From: an uncultured Clostridia bacterium
GTDB lineage: Bacteria > Bacillota > Clostridia > UBA1381
Direction: 5' to 3'
Assembly (NCBI GenBank): GCA_944390495.1
Contig: CALXQE010000055.1
Span: 1-35,471, forward strand
DNA: 35,471 bases
The translations under genes and the position numbers were made by a program. The notes under the pieces are model-generated. The model made no database searches. It saw only the letters and a program-made list of their open reading frames with translations, and was not told where the DNA came from. The stretch's first letter is position 1; the number at the start of each line of letters is the position of its first letter. Positions 20,509 through 27,730 of the stretch are shown here, in pieces.

Positions 20509-20530
20509 TACTTGTTTTTGACATAGACTA
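20502..20530. promoter_or_regulatory. Inverted repeat bridging two divergent -35 boxes
   Basis: Arms TTGTCTAT (20502-20509) and ATAGACTA (20523-20530) match at 7 of 8 positions with a 13-base centre. One arm overlaps the -35 of the flavoprotein gene, the other touches the TTGACA of the BFD/GTPase operon. This is a plausible shared operator; the regulator is unknown. Confidence 0.45.
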
Positions 20531-20546
20531 ATAATAATGGTATAAT
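20518..20546 (+). promoter_or_regulatory. Consensus sigma-A promoter of the BFD/GTPase operon
   Basis: Perfect TTGACA (20518-20523), 17-base spacer, perfect TATAAT (20541-20546). Confidence 0.88.
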
Positions 20547-20568: not shown

Positions 20569-20751
20569 ATGAATGATAAAAAATTAGTGTGCAACTGTAT
20601 GAATATTACAATAGCAGATATAAGAAGTGCTGTTAAAAGCGGTGCAGACACATTTGATAAAGTACAGTCAAAAACAGGTGCATCAACTTCATGCAAAAGA
20701 TGTATTGAATACGCAGAAAATGTATTTAAAGCCATTATGGACGGAGAATAA
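20569..20751 (+). CDS. BFD-like [2Fe-2S]-binding protein
   Basis: 60 residues. Cysteines C8-x-C10 and C42-x2-C45 (VCNCMN, SCKRC) match the bacterioferritin-associated ferredoxin-like [2Fe-2S] domain. In other bacteria this domain either helps release iron from bacterioferritin or forms part of larger oxidoreductases; as a free small protein it is probably an electron carrier. Strong GAGGTGAT ribosome site. The next gene, a ribosomal GTPase-nuclease fusion, starts five bases after its stop, so the two are cotranscribed; no bacterioferritin gene is present. Confidence 0.88.
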   Translation: MNDKKLVCNCMNITIADIRSAVKSGADTFDKVQSKTGASTSCKRCIEYAENVFKAIMDGE

Positions 20752-20756
20752 TATAG

Positions 20757-23309
20757 ATGAACAGACTTGTAATAGGAATACTTGCCCATGTCGATTCGGG
20801 CAAAACAACATTGTCCGAGGGACTTTTATATACTGCCGGAGAAATACGGAAACTTGGACGAGTAGACCATGGAGATGCATTTCTTGATACGAATGAAATA
20901 GAAAAAGACAGAGGTATTACGATATTTTCAAAACAGGCAGTATTAAACTTTAAAGATACAGAAATAACACTTGTAGATACTCCGGGACATATTGATTTCT
21001 CTGCCGAAACGGAACGTACTTTCGGCATAATGGATTATGCCGTTCTTGTAATAAGCGGTACAGACGGAGTACAAAATCATACGGAAACATTATGGCGTCT
21101 TCTTAAAAGGTATAATGTACCTACATTTATATTTGTAAATAAAATGGATTTGTGTGCCGATAAAGAAAGTGTTATGTCAGAACTTAAAATGCGTTTTGGT
21201 GACGGATGTATTGATTTTACTAATGGTATAGACAATGAGGAGTTTCTTGATGAAATCTCCATGTGTGATGAAACTATGATGAACAGTTACCTGGAAAATG
21301 GTAATGTCAAAATTGAAGATATAAGAAACGGGATAGTTTTAAGACGAGTATTTCCGTGCTTTTTTGGCTCTGCGTTAAAAAATGAAGGTGTAAAGGAATT
21401 TTTAGAGGGTATATCCCTTTATTCAAGACGTATAATCTATGATGACAATTTCGGTGCAAAGATTTATAAAATATCTGAAGATGAGCAGGGTACACGTCTT
21501 ACGCATATGAAAATAACAGGCGGAGTGCTGAAAGTAAAGGACAAGCTTGTTGGTAAGGGTAAAAACGAATGGAATGAAAAGGTAAATCAAATAAGAATAT
21601 ACTCCGGAGCGAAATACATGGCTGTTGATGAAGTGTGCGGCGGTATGATTTGTGCAGTAACGGGACTGACACAAACATATCCGGGCGAGGGACTTGGAAG
21701 AGAGGAAGACTCAAAGGAAGCAGTGCTTGAAGCAGTTCTTACGTATAAAATGGAACTTCCTGACGGAGTAGATGTGCATACTGCACTTACCAAACTTCGT
21801 CGTCTTGAAGAAGAAGACCCTCAGCTTAATATAGTATGGAATGAACAGCTTGGCGAGATACATGTAAACGTAATGGGTGAGGTACAGCTTGAGGTTTTGA
21901 CTCGTGTTATAAAGGAAAGGTTTGATTATGACGTTACATTTACACACGGCGGTATTGCGTACAAGGAAACAATTTCGGAAGCTGTCGAGGGAGTAGGTCA
22001 CTATGAACCGCTAAGACACTATGCGGAAGTTCATCTGTTAATGGAACCTTTAAAACGTGGAAGCGGTATGTGCTTTGCGGTTGATTGCAGTGAAGATAGC
22101 CTTGACCGCAACTGGCAAAGGCTTATATTAACTCATTTAAAGGAAAAAAATCATATTGGTGTACTTACAGGTTCGCCTATTACCGATATGAAAATAACAC
22201 TTGTTGCGGGGAAAGCACACCAAAAGCACACTGAAGGCGGTGATTTCAGAGAAGCTACATACAGAGCTGTAAGACAGGGACTTAAAATGGCAGAAAGTGT
22301 GCTTCTTGAACCGTGGTATGAATATTATTTGGAGGTTCCGTCGGTATGTATAGGCAGGGCTATGACTGATATTCAGCAGATGGGAGGAACGTTTTCGCAG
22401 CCTCAAACTATGGGTGAGATGACTGTAATCTCGGGTAAAGTGCCTGTAAGTGAAATGCGTGACTATTCATCAGAGGTTATTTCATATACAAGCGGTAAGG
22501 GAAGACTAAGCTGTATTTTGTGCGGATATGAGCCTTGTCATAACAGTGAAGATGTTATAAACAGTATTGGCTATGACAGTGAGCATGACCTTGAAAATCC
22601 TGCCGATTCTGTATTTTGTTCACACGGTGCAGGATTTGTGGTTAAGTGGAATGAAGTGTATGATTATATGCACCTTGACGGTATAGATTTTAATGAGGAA
22701 GAAGAAACTATAACGGAATGTGCTGACAGATATGTCGAGATGGTGGCAGATGATAATGAACTTATGCATATCTTTGAACGTACCTACGGACCGATAACAC
22801 GTAAAGTATCTTCTTATACGGTTAAAAAAACGGCATCTCCCGAATATAAAAAAAGAAAAACAAATGTAACGGTAAAGGGAAAAGATTATTTGCTTGTTGA
22901 CGGATATAATATTATTTTTGCATGGGACGAATTAAAAATATTAGCAGAACAAAGTCTTGATGCGGCACGTGACAGACTTATAGACATTCTTTGTAATTAT
23001 CAAGGTTTTAAACAGTGTGAGCTTATACTGGTGTTTGATGCTTATAAGGTTAAAGGCGGTATGGGAAGTGTCACAAAAATTCATAACATAAATGTGGTAT
23101 ACACAAAAGAGGCGGAAACTGCTGATATGTATATTGAAAAGACCACCCATGAACTTGGAAAAAAACACAGAGTTCGAGTTGCTACATCTGATAATGTTGA
23201 ACAGATTATTATACTTGGAAGCGGTGCAACACGTGTCAGTGCAAGGGAATTTCATGATGAAATAAAGCAAGCGGAAAAAGTAATAATGGATATTATTTCA
23301 AAAAAATAA
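20757..23309 (+). CDS. TetM/EF-G-like ribosomal GTPase fused to YacP/Rae1-type NYN ribonuclease
   Basis: 850 residues. The N-terminal part is a translational GTPase of the ribosomal-protection group: AHVDSGKTT (10-18), switch I EKDRGIT (49-55), DTPGH (74-78), NKMD (128-131), then domains II-V, with VLLEPWYEY in domain IV/V. TetM-like factors bind the ribosomal A-site region and release tetracycline; this one is divergent, and resistance should not be assumed. From about residue 709 it carries a complete NYN_YacP domain: LLVDGYNIIFAW (Asp715), LVFDAYKVKGG (Asp761), YTKEAETADMYIEK (Glu787, Asp790), VATSDNVEQIIILGSGA. In Bacillus subtilis the stand-alone YacP (Rae1) cleaves mRNA in the A site of translating ribosomes. 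The fusion implies GTPase-assisted delivery of a nuclease to the ribosome. Ribosome site GGAG; the gene is cotranscribed with the BFD ferredoxin. Confidence 0.9.
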   Translation: MNRLVIGILAHVDSGKTTLSEGLLYTAGEIRKLGRVDHGDAFLDTNEIEKDRGITIFSKQAVLNFKDTEITLVDTPGHIDFSAETERTFGIMDYAVLVISGTDGVQNHTETLWRLLKRYNVPTFIFVNKMDLCADKESVMSELKMRFGDGCIDFTNGIDNEEFLDEISMCDETMMNSYLENGNVKIEDIRNGIVLRRVFPCFFGSALKNEGVKEFLEGISLYSRRIIYDDNFGAKIYKISEDEQGTRLTHMKITGGVLKVKDKLVGKGKNEWNEKVNQIRIYSGAKYMAVDEVCGGMICAVTGLTQTYPGEGLGREEDSKEAVLEAVLTYKMELPDGVDVHTALTKLRRLEEEDPQLNIVWNEQLGEIHVNVMGEVQLEVLTRVIKERFDYDVTFTHGGIAYKETISEAVEGVGHYEPLRHYAEVHLLMEPLKRGSGMCFAVDCSEDSLDRNWQRLILTHLKEKNHIGVLTGSPITDMKITLVAGKAHQKHTEGGDFREATYRAVRQGLKMAESVLLEPWYEYYLEVPSVCIGRAMTDIQQMGGTFSQPQTMGEMTVISGKVPVSEMRDYSSEVISYTSGKGRLSCILCGYEPCHNSEDVINSIGYDSEHDLENPADSVFCSHGAGFVVKWNEVYDYMHLDGIDFNEEEETITECADRYVEMVADDNELMHIFERTYGPITRKVSSYTVKKTASPEYKKRKTNVTVKGKDYLLVDGYNIIFAWDELKILAEQSLDAARDRLIDILCNYQGFKQCELILVFDAYKVKGGMGSVTKIHNINVVYTKEAETADMYIEKTTHELGKKHRVRVATSDNVEQIIILGSGATRVSAREFHDEIKQAEKVIMDIISKK

Positions 23310-27497: not shown

Positions 27498-27730
27498 GTT
27501 GTGATTTATGTATGAAATATGCATAAAGGTACTGACAAACGATGAAGCGGGAGGTTGCGACGAATAGCGTCGGTTTTTCCGTGGAGTGAGTCCGATTCAA
27601 GAAACCGGGCGGCAGTTACGCTACACTACCACTATACCTATGTCTTGTATGTTTATGTACATGACGTTCGGAGTGTGTGCGGCGAAAATTGGCTAACTTT
27701 GCCCGAACTTGGATAAAGTTCGGGTTTTTT
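27498..27730 (+). ncRNA. Structured leader RNA of the S10 operon, probable attenuator
   Basis: This leader fills most of the 447-base gene-free stretch between dinB and rpsJ. Visible elements in order: hairpin CGACG-AATAG-CGTCG (27559-27573); CGGTTT (27571-27576) pairing with AAACCG (27602-27607); a nine-position hairpin with one mismatch at 27642-27665; GTTCGG (27666-27671), identical to the 3' arm of the terminator and able to pair with CCGAAC at 27703-27708; then the terminator. In several bacteria S10 leaders bind L4 to repress the operon; whether L4 acts on this one is inferred. The last 94 bases before rpsJ hold a further small hairpin (GGGTG...CACCC, 27736-27753) and the ribosome site. 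Confidence 0.7.
27702..27730 (+). terminator. Intrinsic terminator inside the S10 leader
   Basis: A perfect 9-bp stem CCCGAACTT with AAGTTCGGG, five-base loop, then TTTTTT. It lies between the operon promoter and its first gene. Confidence 0.9.

Follow-up and report, generated by a model that had tools for sequence, protein, structure and literature searches.

The window, by which we mean the whole 35,471-nucleotide stretch of clostridial DNA that was analysed, carries a gene in which an EF-G-like translational GTPase is fused to a nuclease domain of the Rae1/YacP type. By its sequence the GTPase is a distinct subfamily with a clade of its own and not a factor of the TetM/TetO type, and the nuclease is the only NYN_YacP domain in the genome of the window, which is consistent with the fusion performing the job of Rae1. 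With moderate confidence the protein is read as a Rae1 that is tethered through a linker to this GTPase, would act on stalled ribosomes and replaces the free Rae1. The features of the locus are as follows, with residues numbered in the fusion protein:

20518-20546, plus strand: putative promoter of perfect consensus, TTGACA-17-TATAAT, whose -10 element is preceded by TG; it lies ahead of both the BFD-like gene and the fusion (12/12, a match to the consensus only)
20569-20751, plus strand: gene for a BFD-like [2Fe-2S] protein of 60 residues, separated by 5 bp from the fusion that follows (Pfam Fer2_BFD, 3.6e-13)
20757-23309, plus strand: fusion gene, EF-G-like translational GTPase and Rae1/YacP NYN nuclease, 850 residues (translation, Pfam, alignment)
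20766-21416, plus strand: G domain, residues 4-220, with the G1-G5 motifs including AHVDSGKT, DTPGH and NKMD (Pfam GTP_EFTU, 9.9e-50; invariance)
21951-22292, plus strand: EF-G domain IV, residues 399-512 (Pfam EFG_IV, 6.3e-18; AF2 model aligned with ribosome-bound EF-G)
21987-22031, plus strand: domain IV loop I, residues 411-425, with the family signature EGVGHYEPLRHYAEV (alignment of 120 members)
22209-22250, plus strand: domain IV loop III, residues 485-498, GKAHQKHTEGGDFR, where TetM has LYYSPVSTPADFR (alignment of 120 members)
22299-22547, plus strand: EF-G domain V, residues 515-597 (Pfam EFG_C, 1.9e-19)
22524-22676, plus strand: family-specific C-terminal extension, residues 590-640, with C594, C621 and G624 (profile, alignment)
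22677-22880, plus strand: flexible linker of roughly 70 residues, 641-708 (AF2 pLDDT below 50; variable in length and sequence)
22758-22787, plus strand: short conserved linker motif ELMHIFERTY, residues 668-677 (pattern search)
22890-23291, plus strand: predicted NYN_YacP/Rae1-type endoribonuclease domain, residues 712-845 (Pfam, 6.8e-50; 5mq8/5mq9; invariance)

The fusion gene translates as one frame of 850 amino acids whose sole stop codon is terminal, and no frame of similar extent was found on the opposite strand of the same interval. GTP_EFTU, EFG_III (residues 342-395), EFG_IV, EFG_C and NYN_YacP each exceed their Pfam cut-offs; EF-G_D2 gives a weak match below its own. Pfam, an AF2 model (50 alignment rows, pLDDT 84, pTM 0.65) and structure alignment together reveal a complete five-domain EF-G-type plan in residues 1-609, which align with ribosome-bound EF-G as the best matches over 607 residues, with a Z of about 38 and an rmsd of 10.9, a high value that probably reflects domain rearrangement. 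A structure search with the whole model returned only EF-G-like proteins among the matches listed and barely tested the part beyond residue 608. In an alignment of the window protein with 97 other fused proteins (98 in all, or 120 family members once 22 unfused relatives are added), the G-motifs of the GTPase are essentially invariant across the 98. The description in the first-pass annotation of a single uninterrupted 850-residue frame with the GTPase motifs is borne out on all three counts, that is, by translation, by Pfam and by the near-invariance of the motifs.

Scanning genome contigs with the query gave at least 590 encoded relatives, a figure that can include other GTPases; in the 80 loci that were kept the match spans nearly the whole query. 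The fusion also occurs in isolates, among them Ruminococcus flavefaciens FD-1, Intestinimonas butyriciproducens, Eubacterium xylanophilum ATCC 35991 and Anaerovorax odorimutans, and its counterpart in Monoglobus is annotated as a “translation factor GTPase family protein”. As intact frames are present in many genomes, isolates included, an assembly artefact or a purely local fusion is ruled out, and the conservation in relatives that had been proposed as a check is seen in the 98 fused proteins. The fusion is further encoded, at 59.5% and 48.7% identity, in MT835563.1 and MT835514.1, unannotated human faecal records titled “Bacteriophage sp.” that may be bacterial DNA.

NYN_YacP is present in 248 of the 391 genomes of the class. 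Among the 148 genomes with listed YacP frames, 77 have the fused form only and 62 the free form only, so that the outcome that would have spoken against the fusion, separate genes in nearly all relatives, is not what is seen; seven genomes have cut or uncertain frames, one genome has both forms and another, 61% complete, has two fused copies. Both arrangements occur in families f22, f23, f28 and f51, in different genomes, while the sole genome with both belongs to f55, and the second NYN_YacP matches in genomes G136, G201 and G242 fall below the cut-off. Fused and free YacP therefore almost never coexist. Rae1 in other Firmicutes is a separate small protein, and at the two loci read the free gene stands in the order rlmB-yacP-sigH. 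In the genome of the window no yacP follows rlmB and other, unrelated genes are found there. Together with the near-exclusivity of the two forms, this implies that the fusion has supplanted free yacP.

The two trees that bear on the origin of the fusion are quick ones with many weak inner branches. On the GTPase tree the label “fused” needs two changes, the extra one being an unfused copy from Ligilactobacillus salivarius nested among fused proteins. The NYN tree has the fused NYN domains and the YacP of locus L024 on one side and 23 free YacP on the other, a division with a value of 97, with L011, L025, L030 and L031, whose genes are cut by the locus edge, counted as fused. Both trees are compatible with what is essentially one ancient fusion that was rarely reversed. 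In genome G243 the free YacP of L024, which groups with the fused NYN domains, occurs together with an unfused GTPase of the family at G243:C2:817744; this pair is likely a later split of the fusion in which both halves were kept.

A profile built from the extension after domain V was used to find family members, and beyond the fused genes it retrieved frames of about 650-670 amino acids that lack the NYN domain. Twenty of these unfused members were read, and others occur in L. salivarius and Paenibacillus. Of the genomes with an unfused GTPase that were examined, 19 have a separate free YacP, so the same two parts exist there as separate genes, which was counted in favour of the proposed reading; about nine have no YacP of any kind, which was counted against it and implies that the GTPase also has a function apart from YacP. 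Since many genomes conversely have YacP and no GTPase of the family, neither part needs the other. These two groups of genomes, along with the single genome that has a fused-type free YacP beside a separate GTPase, are what would be expected if the fusion were one of convenience, in which the GTPase (in recycling, as a translocation backup or in ribosome splitting) and Rae1 work independently and the tether does no more than hold the nuclease on the ribosome. This explanation, the strongest of the rivals, is nevertheless judged rather unlikely, as a single ancient fusion has in essence been retained in many GTDB families and the linker carries a conserved motif. The AF2 model has pLDDT values below 50 at residues 647-665 and 681-707, between GTPase and NYN domain, and between these two stretches lies the pattern E-L-x-x-I-F-E-R-T-Y, which a pattern search detected in 94 of the 98 fused proteins and in none of the 22 unfused ones. 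The motif may serve as a docking point for the nuclease or as a binding site for a partner.

The GTPase half had initially been described as a ribosomal-protection-type factor, and its classification matters for the second rival, in which the protein is a Tet-type ribosomal protection protein whose added RNase aids resistance to tetracycline or another A-site drug, as proposed in 2015. The domain plan is indeed that of Tet(M)/Tet(O), and the closest curated model is tet_protect; the score of 408 bits is far under the NCBIfam cut-off of 775, and the unfused relatives, at 411-456 bits, miss it as well. The EF-G equivalog is likewise missed (315.6 bits against 659.4). The GTPase is 26-28% identical to Tet(M/O/W/S) and 29.5% identical to EF-G, and the family forms a single clade apart from Tet with SH-aLRT values of 99 and 100 in a quick tree without bootstrap. 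The loops of domain IV differ as well. In loop I, G412, G414, H415, E417, P418, H421, Y422 and E424 are invariant in the 120 members, and fused and unfused proteins have the pattern G-x-G-H-F/Y-E-P-L-R-H-Y-A-E in common, unlike Tet and EF-G; the alignment shows the EF-G loop I RQSGGSGQ (RQSGGxGQ) to be absent from the family. In loop III, with the common pattern H-x-K-H-T-x-G-G-D-F-R, H491, T492, G495 and D496 are invariant in all 120. The Tet(M/O/W/S) counterparts have HIEVPPNPFWA in loop I and LYYSPVSTPADFR in loop III, and the loops of EF-G differ again. The drug-displacing loop of TetM, YYSPVST, was sought in the 120 family members and found in none. The C-terminal extension is common to fused and unfused members and absent in Tet and EF-G.

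Because of these loops, the extension and the separate clade, the TetM-type label expresses a resemblance of plan and not membership. Tetracycline resistance was rejected as the leading reading on the loops and the score, and the absence of the drug-displacing loop leaves the earlier idea that drug-bound ribosomes are recognised without support. The protein is, moreover, mostly single copy per genome and lies in an ordinary chromosomal setting in the window. What remains for the Tet explanation is that such proteins were classed as Tet by Atkinson 2015 and that unfused relatives are annotated so; we consider it quite improbable. The suspicion that proteins of this kind might be annotated as tetracycline resistance proteins proved correct for unfused L. 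salivarius relatives, which carry the label “TetM/TetW/TetO/TetS family”, and unfused homologues on other plasmids of L. salivarius are annotated as tetracycline resistance. On an L. salivarius megaplasmid (locus L166), the unfused GTPase adjoins a copy of rpsN (S14) and a gene for a putative metal homeostasis protein. Within the extension, C594 and C621 (window 22536-22619, plus strand) are invariant in 120 of 120 fused and unfused members and could form a metal or redox site. The genome of the window also encodes two EF-G-like frames of 711 and 721 amino acids.

The assignment of the nuclease domain is made from sequence: it scores 169.7 bits against a curated NYN_YacP cut-off of 24.6 (E 6.8e-50), well above the threshold that had been named as a check, and aligns over 135 residues with the solved B. 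subtilis YacP/Rae1 (5mq8, 5mq9; E 1.8e-27). The active-site residues are intact, with D715, N718, D761, D790, E794 and D812 invariant in 98 of 98 fused proteins, so acidic residues are not lost in homologues. Of the four first singled out, Asp715, Asp761 and Asp790 are accordingly sound; Glu787 is not conserved, since 15 of the 98 proteins have Q there and the other 83 have E, and the conserved acids around it are E785 (95 of 98), D790 and E794. The domain had also been called complete from about residue 709, which does not quite hold: in the window protein the match stops at profile position 136-140 of 166, and the C-terminal tail of Rae1 is absent. This tail (140-166) is kept in 62 of 63 free copies versus 42 of 80 fused ones, counts in which kinship probably leaves few independent events, so that a Fisher value is not to be taken at face value. 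The full tail is a common YacP trait that need not be a strict requirement, and its absence limits the term “full Rae1”, not “NYN_YacP nuclease domain”. The loss-of-function suppressor alleles recovered in B. subtilis include R166P, which lies in the Rae1 tail (PMC6613710). The tailless domain of the window protein may therefore differ in binding or in activity; the GTPase might, for example, have assumed a targeting function that the tail once had. That the nuclease matures rRNA or tRNA and is brought to ribosomes or pre-ribosomes by the GTPase, which Atkinson 2015 (PMC4342817) cites as what was first predicted for NYN proteins of the YacP type, is very improbable, given that the Rae1 of B. 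subtilis is described as cutting mRNA as an endoribonuclease in the A site (PMC6613710, PMC12320835) and that the tip of domain IV is highly conserved, as expected for contacts with assembled ribosomes.

The genomic surroundings add little. The BFD-like gene and the fusion are probably on the same transcript in this genome, and in one same-genus relative compared (L032) no BFD-like counterpart is apparent at the same place. The Pfam-scanned neighbours are cdaA, ybbR, hsp33 and genes for a GerMN-type (Germane) protein, a transaldolase family protein, an S8 peptidase, a PfkB kinase, DUF6472 and a Y-family polymerase, with an FMN reductase on the other strand. Among 104 loci no conserved gene neighbour or operon partner was found, the best cluster reaching 12 of 104, so the context gives the reading no support. 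Mobile or phage cargo was dismissed, with nothing mobile among the Pfam-scanned neighbours, as was anti-phage defence, with no PADLOC match. Leader attenuation as in tet(M) was also discarded: the upstream stretch is the BFD-like gene, and its RNA folding is no better than that of shuffles (z -0.39). Further along, at window 27534-27614 (plus strand), lies an S10-Clostridia ribosomal protein leader (RF03136, 48.3 bits).

Domain IV of EF-G-like factors such as EF-G and TetM occupies the A site and reaches the decoding centre. For the tethered Rae1, the GTPase would bind the factor site of ribosomes whose A site is open or slow, and its own domain IV loops would probe the decoding centre. Upon GTP hydrolysis domain IV would depart and the NYN domain would enter the vacated A site and cut the mRNA, after which the truncated complex could be rescued and the message degraded. 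The competition for a single site that is expected between Rae1 and domain IV was counted against this reading; as both parts are expected in the A site and not together, they must act in turn, presumably in a hand-off with the GTPase first, which the linker would permit. Ribosome binding and A-site cleavage are expected by analogy with EF-G and Rae1; the hand-off, the timing by GTP and stalled ribosomes as the target are what we infer. A more specific version, in which hydrolysis would set when and on which ribosomes the Rae1 domain enters, so that one protein senses the stall and cleaves, with the linker motif docking the resting nuclease, is put forward tentatively as a somewhat unlikely possibility.

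If the tethered Rae1 acts in this way, factor-driven probing of the A site would be linked to mRNA cleavage, and the fusion would offer a handle on how Rae1 chooses ribosomes, a question also posed in B. subtilis. Resistome counts that include such proteins would then be inflated. The sequence argues for a role in ribosome quality control over the tetracycline resistance assigned to relatives in some databases. In a large share of the sampled gut and environmental Clostridia, the sole Rae1 is physically attached to a translational GTPase.

The earliest published report found is that of Atkinson 2015 (PMC4342817), which in one sentence mentions “Tet” proteins from ten species of clostridia that carry a YacP-like NYN domain, and proposes an RNase role. 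The architecture is identical and is therefore not itself a discovery. No experimental test of the fusion was found in the literature, of which the Rae1 part was covered partially, and earlier mentions are possible. While that report describes a Tet protein acquiring a domain, the GTPase is placed here in a subfamily of its own, whose unfused members occur in Clostridia, Paenibacillus and Lactobacillaceae, and the free yacP is replaced; the distinct subfamily, its unfused relatives, the absent drug-displacing loop and the replacement of rae1 are new. The unfused “translation factor GTPase family protein” of L. salivarius (WP_324177469.1, L166) resembles the fusion in its domain IV loops, extension and invariant cysteines, and the unfused GTPases, in one clade with it, are about 45% identical to the window protein in the GTPase part (median of 22), differing in that they lack the linker motif and NYN domain. 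With Tet(M), Tet(O), Tet(W) and Tet(S) the fusion has in common the five-domain EF-G plan, the G-motifs and, in loop III, G485 and D496-F497-R498; it departs from them in overall identity, in the drug-displacing loop and loop I, and in its C-terminal extension. EF-G has the same domains I-V, and its loop III histidine is retained in the fusion (H488, 96 of 98), whereas loop I and the overall sequence differ. Compared with Rae1/YacP of B. subtilis (PF05991), the fusion has the same NYN domain with D715, D761, D790, E794 and D812 and, in nearly all cases, the same single copy per genome; by contrast, its NYN domain is tethered behind a GTPase, lacks the tail in the window protein and is encoded by a gene that no longer stands behind rlmB.
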